A stretch of 47,105 bases of DNA from an uncultured Clostridia bacterium (GCA_904395315.1 CAJFNT010000060.1:1-47105), one strand, 5' to 3'. Counted from the stretch's first letter, positions 24,122 through 29,533 are shown. Numbers and translations are program-made. Notes: generated by a model from the sequence alone, not told the origin.

Positions 24122-25192
24122 TTATTTATTGATTGGCTCACCAAAACATGTTATACGGACTGTTCCTGAATAATTGTCGTCATCTTTTGCGGCTGTGTAT
24201 TCTAACCAATATCCAATATTTTTATCTACCCCGAAAAATGGTGCAATATAGTTGTCAGTGTATATATTTTTTACTTTAGCAACGCTGTGTTTATTAGCCG
24301 GAAACTGTACCATAGCGATGGTTTGCTGTGAAAGTTCTGCTGTTTTGGTATAATAATTTTTATGCAAGCTAATAGATATATTACCGGTATCATTAAGATT
24401 ATTGGGTATATATTCTATCAATATATCTTCAGATAGATTTCTTAGCTCATACGCAGAGTAGTTTAATCCCATCTTGCTATTAGTGCTATTTACATTTTCA
24501 CTGTAAATTGTATTGTTTAGATAATACACAGGTGGCCCATCAGCGAAAAAAGCGTCATAGTTTAGAGGAGATTCAGGACCTTTCAACTCTTTCCCAGCAA
24601 AAGTGTTTTCCCATTCTTGCGGTATATCATTTTCACTTAATAACTCTACATCACATCCATATTCATCAAGGCTTCCGAAAAGAAAACGCAAAGTGTATTC
24701 AGGAGGTGTGTTTTCTTCGTATACGAAAACAGGATTGTCAGCTTTCTTTATTAAATCTACACGTGTCATATCATCAGAGGGATTTACCGTGTAGTTCATC
24801 GCTTCACCAATATATCTTAAAGGAATATAAGTATAATCATTGATTATTTTTGCTTCGGTGTCCATATATATTCTGGTGCCGTTTAAAAAAGAAACATTAC
24901 TGCCTATATCAAAAACAGTATAGTTTGCATCGTTTTTACTTATTATTTCGACTCTTCCATTGCCATAATCAGGCTCCCAAATTACTTTTGCACCGATGGC
25001 TTCTCCTATCATACGTACAGGAATTAGCAAACGATCATTTTCATCAATAAGAGGCTTTGCATCTGCAAATTCCATTTTGACATTATCTATATATATATCA
25101 GGTACATTTTCAGCAGGGTCATTTGCAAAAGTGACACCAACAAAAATATTTGATATTATTGTTGATGCTATAATGATTCGTGATAGTTTCAT
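24122..25192 (-). CDS. Secreted protein with copper-amine-oxidase-N-like (stalk) domain
   Basis: 356 residues; AAGGAGG precedes the ATG. Residues 1-23 are a signal peptide ending in TFA. Residues about 30-150 hold the stalk domain, with two copies of its core motif: LLIPVRMIGEAIGAKVIWEP and YTYIPLRYIGEAMNYTV. Residues about 165-356 show no domain I recognise: polar, beta-rich, rich in Asn and Tyr, low in Cys. Such stalk domains occur in many secreted Clostridia proteins and probably act as spacers or wall-binding modules. The gene is clearly more A/T-rich than addA next to it, which hints at a different origin. Confidence 0.75.
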   Translation of the reverse strand: MKLSRIIIASTIISNIFVGVTFANDPAENVPDIYIDNVKMEFADAKPLIDENDRLLIPVRMIGEAIGAKVIWEPDYGNGRVEIISKNDANYTVFDIGSNVSFLNGTRIYMDTEAKIINDYTYIPLRYIGEAMNYTVNPSDDMTRVDLIKKADNPVFVYEENTPPEYTLRFLFGSLDEYGCDVELLSENDIPQEWENTFAGKELKGPESPLNYDAFFADGPPVYYLNNTIYSENVNSTNSKMGLNYSAYELRNLSEDILIEYIPNNLNDTGNISISLHKNYYTKTAELSQQTIAMVQFPANKHSVAKVKNIYTDNYIAPFFGVDKNIGYWLEYTAAKDDDNYSGTVRITCFGEPINK

Positions 25193-25305: not shown

Positions 25306-25947
25306 TTAAAAAGCATTTATATCTATAGAACCATAAGCTCTTCCACCGGTCTCATTTGTTACAGAAGCATAGCATATATAATCTGTATTAACGTTATGCA
25401 AAATTAGAGTTTTGTTATGGTCAACACTAACAGAAGCGTATGGTCTATTTCCATTCAACATAGGTATATAGAAATCACCATATAACTCATTATTAAATTC
25501 ATCATAGCTACTTCCGTTTCCTGCGGTAATTTCAAAGAAAACAGTTGCATTGGATGCACTGGATGTATCCATTTCTAATTCGCGATCTGTATACTGTGTT
25601 GTATTATTAGGCATATCAATTTCTGCTGTATAGTTTGCATTAAATATATTATATGCTCTTGATGACATATCATCTATGTCATCAATTAAGTATCCCGTAA
25701 AGCCTGCTCTTAGTTGCATTATCGGTGAGTTATCCAGAACTTCAACTGTTATTCCGCCATATGCAGGTATTATACCGTTTACTTTATCTATATCATCTGA
25801 GGTATAATTAACCATGTTCCCGTTTACATCTGTTACAGAAAGAACAATATCATCATTGCTTTGCGCTGAGGCGTTAATGCAAATCATAGTCATTGCACTA
25901 ATTGCGAGAACGGTTGTTGTTGTGAGTATTTTTTTGAATGTTTTCAT
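25306..25947 (-). CDS. Secreted protein of unknown function
   Basis: 213 residues; GAGGAGG lies about 11 bases before the ATG. Residues 1-29 are a signal peptide (KKILTTTTVLAISAMTMICI, cleavage near ASA). The mature part is acidic, rich in Asn, Asp, Ser and Tyr, without Cys pairs or a transmembrane segment, and ends in GGRAYGSIDINAF. I recognise no domain. It is A/T-rich and lies between the stalk-domain gene and the agr locus, all on the minus strand, but it has no copy of the agr box in front of it. Confidence 0.65.
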   Translation of the reverse strand: MKTFKKILTTTTVLAISAMTMICINASAQSNDDIVLSVTDVNGNMVNYTSDDIDKVNGIIPAYGGITVEVLDNSPIMQLRAGFTGYLIDDIDDMSSRAYNIFNANYTAEIDMPNNTTQYTDRELEMDTSSASNATVFFEITAGNGSSYDEFNNELYGDFYIPMLNGNRPYASVSVDHNKTLILHNVNTDYICYASVTNETGGRAYGSIDINAF

Positions 25948-26008: not shown

Positions 26009-26037
26009 TTGACATTTTGATGAAAAATGTGTATACT
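26009..26037 (+). promoter_or_regulatory. Consensus promoter of a candidate small RNA
   Basis: TTGACA (26009-26014), 17 bases, TATACT (26032-26037). No plus-strand protein gene follows. Confidence 0.7.
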
Positions 26038-26043
26038 GTATAT

Positions 26044-26106
26044 AGAAGAGGGATCACCTGATATCATGTGAGTTGCATTTTTTATGATAATGGGTCTCTC
26101 TTTTTT
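26044..26106 (+). ncRNA. Candidate small RNA with terminal hairpin
   Basis: From the predicted start near 26044 the transcript would be about 63 bases and end at an intrinsic terminator: GAGGGATC (26048-26055) pairs with GGTCTCTC (26093-26100, two wobbles) followed by TTTTTT (26101-26106). Inside, TATCAT and ATGATA form an inner stem. A consensus promoter and a terminator this close together with no reading frame between is the usual layout of a small RNA gene. Target unknown; it lies antisense to the space upstream of the secreted-protein gene. Confidence 0.5.
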
Positions 26107-26266
26107 CTTATGTATGTTTATCTTTGCATCAATAATATTATCCATTGTATCACAGTAACTTAACCGCTTGAGTGACGCTTTTTTATTTTTTGTGATAAGC
26201 TCACAGGACCTGCGACAGAAACAGGATCGAGTCCGTGATACCCGTATAATATTAAGTGATGACATT

Positions 26267-26302
26267 ATTATATACATCTCCCGAAAGGGAGCTGTATATA
26301 AT
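26267..26302. repeat. Strong inverted repeat with GAAA loop, downstream of agrD
   Basis: ATTATATACA and TGTATATAAT flank a T/C mismatch and CTCCC-GAAA-GGGAG, giving 15 pairs. On the plus strand the loop is the stable GNRA type GAAA; on the minus strand it reads TTTC. No T-run follows on either strand. It may end or protect the agrD mRNA. Confidence 0.5.
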
Positions 26303-26352
26303 AGTGGAAACATTTTTGATCTTTGCGGTGTTTCCGATCTTCATATGCCCGT

Positions 26353-26523
26353 TTATTTGTTCATTCGCTTGAATCGTTCGATCCCGGCCGGCTCGTCCGG
26401 CTCATAGAATGGGCCAGTACACGGCGAGTTTGCCGAAACGAATACACATGCGAATGCGCAGGCTGCCGCCGCGGCGCCGTATTTGCTCAAAAAAGCCATT
26501 GCGGCTTTTTTCAGTATGTTCAT
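26353..26523 (-). CDS. agrD: AgrD-like cyclic lactone autoinducer pre-peptide
   Basis: 56 residues; AGGAGGTG precedes the ATG at 26523. The layout is that of AgrD: an amphipathic N-terminus (MNILKKAAMAFLSKYG), an Ala-rich hydrophobic segment, a short core SANSPCTGPFYEPDEPAG and a charged tail ending in KRMNK. In Clostridia AgrD peptides the ring Cys is followed after four residues by a YxP..P-type leader; CTGPF followed by YEPDEP fits, so a five-residue Cys-to-Phe thiolactone ring is the likely product (inference). AgrB would cut and cyclise it. It has its own promoter with the same upstream boxes as agrB. Its small size makes it easy to miss. Confidence 0.85.
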   Translation of the reverse strand: MNILKKAAMAFLSKYGAAAAACAFACVFVSANSPCTGPFYEPDEPAGIERFKRMNK

Positions 26524-26588: not shown

Positions 26589-26617
26589 ATTTTATCATCA
26601 ATAAATGTTGTTGTCAA
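26589..26617 (-). promoter_or_regulatory. Promoter of agrD
   Basis: On the minus strand TTGACA (26617-26612), 17 bases, TAAAAT (26594-26589). The direct-repeat box ends 7 bases upstream of the -35. Confidence 0.8.
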
Positions 26618-26623
26618 TAAACA

Positions 26624-26657
26624 TTGCTAAATCCGCATTTTCTTTGCAAAATCCGCA
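26624..26657 (-). promoter_or_regulatory. Direct-repeat box upstream of the agrD promoter (likely LytTR site)
   Basis: On the plus strand TTGCTAAATCCGCA and TTGCAAAATCCGCA repeat with a 20-base period. The same pair stands before the agrB promoter at an identical distance (9 bases from the -35 edge to the GC of the first repeat). Two direct repeats about two helix turns apart just ahead of -35 are typical of LytTR-type regulators such as AgrA. Confidence 0.75.
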
Positions 26658-26674
26658 TTGTATAAACGAAACAG

Positions 26675-27985
26675 TCAGCTTTTTGCTCCGATGTTTTCAA
26701 ACAGGATTGAAAGGATATATGCGCCGTCATGCACTTCGGTATCGGTAAAAGCGGAGTATTTTTCGAGCGCCCGTTCTATATTGCGCCTGCCTATACCGTG
26801 CTCATGTTTGTTCGGCTTGGTCGTTTTGTTCGTTACGGAAGTGTTCTTCGGACAGGAGTTTTCGATCCTGCATATAAGATCTTTTCCGTCATATTTTATA
26901 AGCACAAATATATATCTGTCCGAATCAAGCTTTTCACACGCTTCTATCGCATTGTCCAGAGCGTTGCCGAATATCACGCACGTGTCCTCGTCAGCCAGCG
27001 GCAGTTGGGGCGGTATGGTGAGCTTTGTTTTAAAACGTATACCCTTCTTCTCTGCTTCTTCTTTTTTTGCCCCGAGCATAGCGTCGAGCGCGGTGTTGCC
27101 GGTGTCGAACCGCGCGCTGCTTGGCGAGTTCCCGATAATATTGTCTATGTAGGCAATGCAGTCCTCCAAGTCTCCGCGCTCCGCCTTTGCCCTTACCGTG
27201 AGCAGATGGTTTTTCAAATCATGCCTGAGCGATTGTGTCCTGTCATAAGCCTCGGCTATCTCGCTGTAATGCTTCATCCTGTCTTTCAGACTGTTGCTTA
27301 TAAGACGTTCGTCCGACAGTTCGGAACGCTGCTTTGTGTTTCTGTCGTACAGAAAGAGTATGGTTATACATGTCATGATAAGACCTGCGGTACAGATATA
27401 GATCCTTATACGCAATACCTTGTCTACACCCACAGCAAGAACAAGATAGAATGTATGCACGGTGATTATTATGGATAAAAGCACGAGTAAAAACAGTATC
27501 CAGTATACACTGTCAATAAGATTCATTTTTCGTTTTATTTTATAGTATACAAATACAGAAAGCGCGGTGCCGACGCTTTTTGAAACAGCTATGCCGATTA
27601 TCCTGTATGTACCGTCTGCAATTATTGATGCTACATGTCCGTCAAGAAGGATAGACATGCACATAAGCACTACTATTTCAGATACAGATGAGACCATAAA
27701 ACTGAATATTGCCGCGATAGTTCTTCTGCTTGTGCTGCCTATATACAGTATCGAAAACAATAATTCCAAAATAATCATTACCATCATATTTAATAAATTT
27801 GTAGAAAACAGATGGTTGCTGAAATTTATCATGCAGCCCAAAGCAGCAGCTCCCGCATAGTAGATCCAGGGCTTCACATTTTCTTTGCGCTCAAGGAATG
27901 CTTCGAACAATATAATAGTGTAAAGCGCATCAAAAAAACCGGTGGATAGATCCGCAATATCAAAAATACTCATATTCGCCGTCAC
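26675..27985 (-). CDS. agrC: AgrC-like sensor histidine kinase (GHKL type)
   Basis: 436 residues from a GTG at 27985 that overlaps the regulator stop by 4 bases; an ATG at 27973 is an alternative. Residues 1-205 hold about six membrane segments, as in AgrC-type peptide receptors. A dimerisation region carries the phospho-accepting His in SLRHDLKNHLLTVRAKAERG (about 253), and the ATPase has the N box NALDNAIEACE (about 340) and a late G box HGIGRRNIERAL (about 395), as in HPK10-type kinases. It would sense the cyclic peptide made from the neighbouring agrD and phosphorylate the LytTR regulator. Confidence 0.88.
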   Translation of the reverse strand: MTANMSIFDIADLSTGFFDALYTIILFEAFLERKENVKPWIYYAGAAALGCMINFSNHLFSTNLLNMMVMIILELLFSILYIGSTSRRTIAAIFSFMVSSVSEIVVLMCMSILLDGHVASIIADGTYRIIGIAVSKSVGTALSVFVYYKIKRKMNLIDSVYWILFLLVLLSIIITVHTFYLVLAVGVDKVLRIRIYICTAGLIMTCITILFLYDRNTKQRSELSDERLISNSLKDRMKHYSEIAEAYDRTQSLRHDLKNHLLTVRAKAERGDLEDCIAYIDNIIGNSPSSARFDTGNTALDAMLGAKKEEAEKKGIRFKTKLTIPPQLPLADEDTCVIFGNALDNAIEACEKLDSDRYIFVLIKYDGKDLICRIENSCPKNTSVTNKTTKPNKHEHGIGRRNIERALEKYSAFTDTEVHDGAYILSILFENIGAKS

Positions 27986-28695
27986 AACCCTTCTTTATAG
28001 CGTGTGTACCGTCTGTTGAACGTACCCATGAATGTTCTTCCGATCTCCAGCTCTTCCTCCACCCCTTTGATCTTTACTTGATTTTTGTGGTGCTGTTCGA
28101 CTTTTGTTATATCGATAATATACGACTGGTATATCCTTACGAACCGCTGCGGCGGAAGTCTGGTCTCCAATTCCGACAAAGAGACGTTTGCGCAGAGATC
28201 TCCGGAAACGGTATGGAAGACCGTTTTCCGTCCCTTTTTTTCTATGTATAGTATATCGCTGTATTTTATCCTTTTGTTTTCCTTGCGCACGATGATATCG
28301 ATAAAATCATTGCTCCTGCAGAGCTGTTTGAATGCCAGAGACAATTCGAACTCGAGAGCCTCGTATTCAAGCGGCTTTCGCCAAAAATTGAACGGACGGG
28401 CGTTGAAGCAGTCTATAGCGTAATGACTATGCGAGGTAAGAAAAAATATCACGACCTCTTCGTCCCTGTTCCTGACCCTGGACGCGAGCTCTATGCCGTT
28501 CATCGTCCCGTTGAACTCTATATCTGTTATGAGGATGTCGAAGGTGTTCCCGTTCATTTTATAATAGTCCATCGCATCCTCCGCCAAGTAAAACCGTTTG
28601 TATTTAATATCATAGCGTCCGCCGGAGAATCTATCGATATATCCGATAACTTGTTCCACTATTTCTTTGCTGTCATCACATACAGCCACACGCAT
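27982..28695 (-). CDS. agrA: AgrA-like response regulator with LytTR DNA-binding domain
   Basis: 237 residues from ATG 28695 (GGAGG 8 bases upstream; a GTG one codon earlier also fits). Receiver domain: VAVCDDSKE acidic pair, phospho-Asp in FDILITDIEF (about 59), FLTSHSHYA switch Thr/Ser, and Lys in FWRKPLEYE. LytTR domain from about 135: IIVRKENKRIKYSDILYIEKKGRKTVFHT, LSELETRLPPQRFVRIYQSYII and GRTFMGTFNRRYTRY. LytTR regulators bind direct repeats through beta strands in the major groove. The repeats before agrB and agrD are the natural targets. Transcribed with agrC from its own promoter at 28788-28816. Confidence 0.92.
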   Translation of the reverse strand: MRVAVCDDSKEIVEQVIGYIDRFSGGRYDIKYKRFYLAEDAMDYYKMNGNTFDILITDIEFNGTMNGIELASRVRNRDEEVVIFFLTSHSHYAIDCFNARPFNFWRKPLEYEALEFELSLAFKQLCRSNDFIDIIVRKENKRIKYSDILYIEKKGRKTVFHTVSGDLCANVSLSELETRLPPQRFVRIYQSYIIDITKVEQHHKNQVKIKGVEEELEIGRTFMGTFNRRYTRYKEGL

Positions 28696-28731
28696 CACCG
28701 ATACCTCCAGTTTTTTTTATATGTCCCCGCA

Positions 28732-28763
28732 GGCGACCGCGGAACATTGGTCCCGCGGTCGCC
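28732..28763. repeat. GC-rich hairpin in the leader of the agrA-agrC transcript
   Basis: GGCGACCGCGG and CCGCGGTCGCC form a perfect 11-pair stem around ten bases. It lies between the agrA promoter and its Shine-Dalgarno. No T-run follows, so it is not a plain terminator; it may pause or stabilise the transcript. Confidence 0.6.
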
Positions 28764-28787
28764 GAAAGCATTTGGGCCTATACAGTT

Positions 28788-28816
28788 ATTATAGCACCGA
28801 TCTATGCGTTTTTCAA
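28788..28816 (-). promoter_or_regulatory. Promoter of agrA-agrC
   Basis: On the minus strand TTGAAA (28816-28811), 17 bases, TATAAT (28793-28788). No agr box is found upstream, so this promoter looks constitutive. Confidence 0.7.
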
Positions 28817-28831
28817 TGTTTACATATGCAT

Positions 28832-29413
28832 TTACTGTTTTCCTCGGATGGTGTTCTTTATCTTTCCCGCTGTGATGGAGAGAAGCGAAGTCAGCGCGCT
28901 CAGGATCATTATGTAAATATAGATATTGTAAAAACCGAGCAGCACAGAGCAGACTGCGGCCGCGGCTTCCGCGCCGGCAAATATAATGCTTATACGGCGG
29001 TATCTCTTTTTCTCAGCCCCATTCACGGATTTCTCGGAGAGCGGAGCCCACAGCGTCACCGCCGCGAGGGACAGTATAGGTATAAAAGACAATACCGCGC
29101 TGTGTTGCATGAATATCTCAAACCGCACCGCGATGCTGAATAAAACATACACCGCAAGAAACAGCAGATAGCATCTCAGCCTGGTATCGGCATGGTATCC
29201 TCCTCCGTATATCCGTACCGGGATAAACGTGCAGAGGAAGACCGCCGTAAAGATGAAATTTCCCGCGAACAGAGATATAAACAGCACAGACGCGACCTCC
29301 AGCACAGAAATAATGAAAAGCTCTATGCCGTAGCGGCAGATATCTATGTCGCTTTTTTGTATATGTCCCATTTTGGCAAGAAACGAAGCGATCTTGTAAG
29401 TTACGCTGTCCAT
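28832..29413 (-). CDS. agrB: AgrB-like accessory gene regulator peptidase
   Basis: 193 residues. AgrB family marks: multiple membrane helices and the motif RIYGGGYHADTRLRCYLL, holding the catalytic His (74) and Cys (81) seven residues apart as in known AgrB. This membrane cysteine protease cuts the AgrD pre-peptide behind its core and forms the thiolactone ring. First gene on the minus strand of the agr locus, read from a promoter with the shared direct-repeat box. agrA-agrC follows after 136 bases from a separate promoter; agrD is the last gene of the locus instead of the usual place next to agrB. Confidence 0.92.
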   Translation of the reverse strand: MDSVTYKIASFLAKMGHIQKSDIDICRYGIELFIISVLEVASVLFISLFAGNFIFTAVFLCTFIPVRIYGGGYHADTRLRCYLLFLAVYVLFSIAVRFEIFMQHSAVLSFIPILSLAAVTLWAPLSEKSVNGAEKKRYRRISIIFAGAEAAAAVCSVLLGFYNIYIYIMILSALTSLLSITAGKIKNTIRGKQ

Positions 29414-29462
29414 TTGCTCAACTCCTCCCGCGCGGATACAGCAATATTTTTATACTGATATG

Positions 29463-29492
29463 ATTGTATCAGTATCCGGCGCCGAATGTCAA
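29463..29492 (-). promoter_or_regulatory. Promoter of agrB
   Basis: On the minus strand TTGACA (29492-29487), 18 bases, TACAAT (29468-29463). An inverted repeat ACTGATA/TATCAGT (29454-29473) covers the -10 region. Confidence 0.7.
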
Positions 29493-29497
29493 TAGAT

Positions 29498-29533
29498 TTT
29501 GCAAAATCCGCATTTTCTTTGCAAAATCGGCAG
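29498..29533 (-). promoter_or_regulatory. Direct-repeat box upstream of the agrB promoter (likely LytTR site)
   Basis: On the plus strand TTTGCAAAATCCGCA and TTTGCAAAATCGGCA with a 20-base period; from the -35 outward it matches the agrD box nearly base for base. Confidence 0.75.

Follow-up and report, generated by a model that had tools for sequence, protein, structure and literature searches.

Paired direct repeats upstream of agrB and agrD predict autoinduction of signal production at an uncultured clostridial agr locus

The agr system of S. aureus is built from AgrB, AgrD, AgrC and the LytTR regulator AgrA, with paired direct repeats upstream of the -35 element and positive feedback on the signal gene; its genes form a single agrBDCA operon, in which sensing is induced too, and a divergent RNAIII is also present. 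Staphylococcal AgrA binds direct repeats at P2 and P3, and its DNA-contacting motif is FFRCHNS (PMC4227749). In C. acetobutylicum, signal (agrBD) and sensing (agrCA) genes lie in separate transcription units, agrB and agrD being adjacent, and the text of that report as searched describes no AgrA box (PMC10301443). The LytTR regulators RgaR of C. difficile and VirR of C. perfringens are associated with direct repeats about 21 bp apart that lie upstream of an agrBD promoter (PMC10602386). The RgaR repeats have a critical G at -51/-72 of the spoZ promoter, and the RgaR targets include agrB1D1 (PMC10602386). RgaS/RgaR are encoded elsewhere and are unresponsive to AgrD1, Agr1 is driven by this outside LytTR regulator without feedback, and a recent study suggested that the Agr systems of clostridia generally lack autoregulation (PMC10602386). 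The agrACDB locus of C. difficile 027 shows the opposite tendency to Agr1, the whole locus falling in an agrA mutant (PMC3754575). Among the LytTR Regulatory Systems, HdrRM and BrsRM are positively autoregulated operons of a regulator and a membrane inhibitor, with neither a peptide signal nor a kinase; the streptococcal HdrR sites have been confirmed by EMSA and reporters, and proven LytTR sites consist of 9-bp repeats, 11-13 bp apart and 4-11 bp before the -35 element, that often diverge from the consensus (PMC6193735).

The locus described here lies in a 47,105-nucleotide stretch of DNA (hereafter the window; GCA_904395315.1 CAJFNT010000060.1:1-47105) from an uncultured gut-type clostridium of the genus Candidatus Ornithomonoglobus, whose genome (G000) comprises 2,559,902 bp on 195 contigs and is 89% complete. 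It is a complete agr quorum-sensing locus on the minus strand, in the order agrB / agrA-agrC / agrD (Table 1). It encodes an AgrB-family protease, an AgrC GHKL kinase whose N-terminal half is hydrophobic in translation and predicted to be a membrane sensor, an AgrA with a LytTR domain, and an AgrD with a conserved cysteine core and an acidic C-terminal tail. AgrD gave no match in Pfam or NCBIfam profile searches; it shows 43-59% aligned identity to four other AgrD peptides, with the common core NSPCxxPFYEPEEP, and residues C35, P38, Y40, E41, E44 and P45 are invariant across five relatives. The mature signal would be an exported AIP with a predicted Cys-Thr-Gly-Pro-Phe ring. The parts list, the LytTR regulator and the paired repeats upstream of -35 are those of S. 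aureus, as is the predicted feedback, but the window has three promoters, a box at those of agrB and agrD only and a different half-site; no RNAIII-like divergent boxed RNA was found at the window locus, and its organization is not of the RNAII/RNAIII type. Signal and sensing genes occupy separate units as in C. acetobutylicum, whereas here agrB and agrD are split by agrA-agrC and the boxes are duplicated. The agrBD-directed LytTR repeats recall RgaR and VirR, although here the locus itself encodes AgrA-AgrC, and every locus carries a box of its own. With HdrRM and BrsRM the window shares repeat geometry, divergence from the LytTR consensus and, as a prediction, positive autoregulation.

Table 1. 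Positions of genes, promoters, boxes and the leader hairpin (window coordinates unless contig C92 is named)
Feature	Position	Strand	Description
agrB	28832..29413	-	signal-peptide processing membrane protease, 193 aa; Pfam AgrB PF04647, E 1.4e-28
agrA	27982..28698	-	response regulator with LytTR DNA-binding domain; PF04397 E 1.2e-14, PF00072 E 4.1e-10; motif FVRIYQS
agrC	26675..27985	-	GHKL histidine kinase sensor; PF14501 E 5.8e-22
agrD	26353..26523	-	signal precursor, 56 aa, core NSPCTGPFYEPDEP; 59% identical to G013 AgrD
agrB promoter	29463..29492	-	TTGACA-N18-TACAAT; 11/12 consensus match; -35 first base 29492
agrA-agrC promoter	28788..28816	-	TTGAAA-N17-TATAAT; 11/12; without box
agrD promoter	26589..26617	-	TTGACA-N17-TAAAAT; 11/12 consensus match; -35 first base 26617
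distal box, agrB promoter	29519..29532	-	TGCCGATTTTGCAA; exact match
proximal box, agrB promoter	29499..29512	-	TGCGGATTTTGCAA; 6 bp from -35
distal box, agrD promoter	26644..26657	-	TGCGGATTTTGCAA; exact match
proximal box, agrD promoter	26624..26637	-	TGCGGATTTAGCAA; 6 bp from -35
strong hairpin in agrA leader	28731..28766	-	fold z -3.7; without T-run, so no recognisable terminator
C92 boxed promoter 1	C92:15244-15273 (L107:4245-4274)		before LytTR regulator + GHKL kinase pair
C92 boxed promoter 2	C92:17434-17463 (L107:6435-6464)		before small lipoprotein gene

Among promoter-like sites in the region, those of agrB, agrA and agrD score highest, and two of them are preceded by a pair of direct repeats whose four copies all fit the consensus TTGCWAAATCSGCA with 0 mismatches. 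Both pairs have a period of exactly 20, the gap from proximal box to TTGACA is 6 bp at both sites on the gene strand, and 2875 bp separate the pairs; the spacer between half-sites is identical at the two sites, and over 46 bp they are 89% identical. An earlier reading of the sequence alone (the sequence-only reading) had described this twice-occurring motif, its 20-base period, a first GC lying 9 bases from the -35 edge, which follows from the 6-bp gap, and a distance of about 3 kb, all of which hold; its coordinates were right for 26624-26657, and its 29498-29533 was one base too wide at each end. It had also proposed a genome-wide search for the two-repeat motif. With up to 3 mismatches allowed, the genome contains two instances of the paired pattern, in a count that covers an 89%-complete assembly and leaves further copies possible in the missing part; both are at the agr locus rather than scattered, and a reversed-pattern control gave 0 pairs genome-wide, which excludes a chance origin of the box pairs. 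Because single box copies in the window at the same tolerance are at background level (16 found against 18.5 expected), it is the paired arrangement that constitutes the signal.

The nearest relative compared, Ca. Ornithomonoglobus merdipullorum (G001), has a box pair at its agrB promoter with a period of 21 and the same 6-bp offset, and an agrA promoter that is near-identical to that of the window, lacks a box and begins a few bases past the agrB stop; the G001 contig ends inside agrA, and this comparison covers the agrB and agrA promoters, any agrD lying beyond the contig end. In a third species (G013), agrB-agrA-agrC form one unboxed unit followed by agrD with a box pair (period 20, 6 bp before TTGACT). 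When the four promoters are aligned, invariant columns are concentrated in the half-sites, the -35 element and the TGATA of the -10 region, and flanks and spacers have diverged. The wiring of agrB varies, as the unboxed G013 gene shows, and agrD, alone or with agrB, is a recurrent target.

A wider survey examined promoter-like sites in 37 family agr loci for repeats with a period of 20-22 that end 5-8 bp before -35. At a repeat identity of at least 10/11, such repeats were present at 19 of 63 agrB/agrD promoter candidates, compared with 0 of 55 agrA/agrC candidates and 4 of 1546 sites elsewhere; it should be noted that these counts come from limits set with the window in view, that one promoter can contribute several sites and that the loci are related. 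The same scan on shuffled flanks gave 6 of 33280, and the four sites elsewhere are second copies of their own locus's box. At this threshold about 12-17 of the 37 loci lack a clear box. Each locus has a private box sequence: for instance, it is TTCACGTAA (period 21) on C134 and CCAATCCTGCAG (period 20) on C48, both in the window's own genome, and GACCGAAGTTGT in G009. Relaxing the threshold reveals additional second copies in G009 and G013:C7 with large secreted proteins downstream, and such sites look like candidate agr outputs. Second private-box copies lie after agrB in two other species (L032:3799, minus strand; L035:2362, plus strand), with large secreted proteins downstream, at least one of which has LRR-like repeats (L035 ORF 2697-4475).

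Across 16 loci, boxes are more alike where the LytTR domains of AgrA are more identical (Mantel Spearman r 0.275, p 0.004), a relation that does not hold for the receiver domain (r 0.097, p 0.14). In three of the four closest LytTR pairs the boxes are also the most similar (C60-G013:C23, C134-G050:C5 and C48-G069:C194), and the counterpart of the staphylococcal DNA-contacting motif FFRCHNS is FVRIYQS in the AgrA proteins of both the window and G013, which share a box. The half-sites are direct and 20-22 bp apart centre-to-centre (20 in the window and G013, 21 in G001), and they stand 6 bp upstream of -35 at both window sites and in the relatives, inside the 4-11 bp range of LytTR sites. The half-site itself, TGCNGATTTTGCAA, does not match the ACCNCTTAN-type half-sites tabulated in PMC6193735 and is unlike the staphylococcal AgrA site. 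Given the LytTR co-variation, the motif shared along with the box and the proven LytTR geometry, AgrA is most likely the reader of the box by predicted binding; ownership by an RgaR/VirR-type regulator, or by yet another one, is conceivable in principle.

The best explanation, to which we assign a probability of roughly 0.8, is AgrA-driven positive feedback on signal production at the window locus. The paired repeats would form the binding site of the locus's own AgrA: two monomers would occupy successive turns on the same face of the DNA, 6 bp ahead of the -35 element, and recruit RNA polymerase to PagrB and PagrD. Unboxed PagrA would supply a low level of AgrA and AgrC; the exported cyclic AIP would activate AgrC, AgrC would phosphorylate AgrA, and AgrA~P would raise agrD and agrB, so that signal production feeds back positively on itself. 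The locus would need the box twice, where relatives with adjacent agrBD need it once, because agrA-agrC splits agrB from agrD. Several observations count against this explanation: the -35 and -10 elements of the boxed promoters are near consensus and could fire without an activator; contig C92 has related boxes at another LytTR/GHKL locus, so that AgrA is not the sole candidate reader; the half-site is unlike that of staphylococcal AgrA; agrB of G013 is unboxed; and part of the 37 loci lack a clear box.

The alternative that survives best accepts the boxes as AgrA sites and holds that read-through from PagrB autoinduces the whole agr locus, with no separation of signal from sensing. All four genes share one strand, agrA-agrC has its own unboxed promoter yet lies directly downstream of boxed agrB, and no intrinsic terminator was called on the minus strand between agrB and agrA; since no recognisable terminator stands between them, read-through from agrB could induce agrA-agrC too. 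The absence of a T-run after the hairpin in the agrA leader, the short distance from agrB to the agrA promoter in G001 and the fall of the whole agrACDB locus in the C. difficile 027 agrA mutant are in keeping with this alternative. It is nevertheless unlikely: the promoter directly before agrA is strong, unboxed and conserved in G001, no agrA/agrC promoter candidate in the survey was boxed, and in C134 and G050 the order is A-C-(box)B-D, so that agrA-agrC, being upstream of the box and out of its reach, falls outside the loop. The size of any read-through into agrA-agrC, like the choice of activation rather than repression by AgrA, is something we infer. The sequence-only reading had signal production switched by the regulator and sensing basal, with an agrA-agrC promoter lacking the box. 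The last point is correct (no box at 28816-28788), and autoinduction of the signal genes is upheld by the uniqueness of the boxes, their conservation, their family-wide restriction and the LytTR co-variation; the lack of a recognisable terminator between agrB and agrA and the varying wiring limit the basal part, and strictly basal sensing is not established.

It is improbable that the boxes are owned by another regulator that would control agrB and agrD from outside, such as the LytTR response regulator encoded on C92. A looser genome pattern identified two related box pairs on C92, very like those of the window and each 6 bp before a -35-like hexamer (Table 1), the first of which is kept in the G001 ortholog (C97), and non-autoregulatory control of agrBD by an outside LytTR regulator is documented for C. 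difficile RgaR (PMC10602386). However, G000 and G001 are the only genomes within the genus with close regulators of the C92 type, yet G013 agrD carries the same box without one; each family agr locus has its own box, with similarity following the LytTR domain of its own AgrA; and the LytTR domain from C92 has only 16% identity to AgrA, with no FxRxHRS-like motif. A recent duplication that rode along with the agrB/agrD split and carries no regulatory meaning would be consistent with the near-identity of the two window sites but is very improbable, as G001 and G013 retain the boxes in their exact geometry despite diverged flanks, and other agr loci have unrelated sequences in that position.

Returning to AgrA as the reader, the LytTR domain encoded on C92 is so distant from its own that the sharing of the box points to possible control of C92 by AgrA, and the C92 locus is a candidate agr output; it is also possible that C92 is a self-regulated paralogous system. 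Other matches to the looser pattern, on C167, C151, C8 and G013 (C10, C50), were attributed to chance, as they lie in coding DNA or lack promoter geometry. At odds somewhat short of even, the family's agr loci can be pictured as insulated circuits, in each of which AgrA reads a private direct-repeat address that is placed at signal genes but never at sensing genes; the window's address would also reach the C92 two-component operon and lipoprotein, in a two-tier cascade. Whereas clostridial Agr systems have been suggested not to be autoregulatory, the window and about 20 of the 37 family loci predict the opposite for a large uncultured group of gut clostridia. The predicted feedback acts specifically on signal production, and the cells probably amplify their own signal after sensing it. 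A private box per locus would make the targets of each agr system findable from sequence alone, and the naturally matched LytTR domains and sites offer material for studying how this unusual DNA-binding fold selects its sequence.

Several minor observations concern the surroundings of the locus. An orphan agrA-agrC pair on C27 of the same genome (L051:3376-5432), with an AgrC 41% identical to that of the window, is a possible receiver of another locus's signal; it was set aside as part of the window circuit, since no agrB or agrD is nearby. The leader hairpin before agrA has a very stable 14-bp GC stem, a hairpin of different sequence occupies the same place in G001, and it is possibly an mRNA-stabilising or regulatory leader. 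Downstream of agrD, two secreted-protein genes lie on the same strand (25306-25947 and 24122-25192, the latter encoding a copper amine oxidase N-terminal-like domain); they are possible outputs, and the window and genome pattern searches found no box before them. Between agrD and the secreted-protein gene, positions 26009-26110 of the plus strand contain TTGACA-N17-TATACT and, behind it, an imperfect hairpin with a T-run, possibly encoding a small RNA of ~65 nt; no Rfam match at E<1 was obtained in the agr region, this candidate included. A long near-palindrome after agrD at 26256-26312 (TATTATATACATCTCCC/GGGAGCTGTATATAATA) is probably the end of the agrD transcript.
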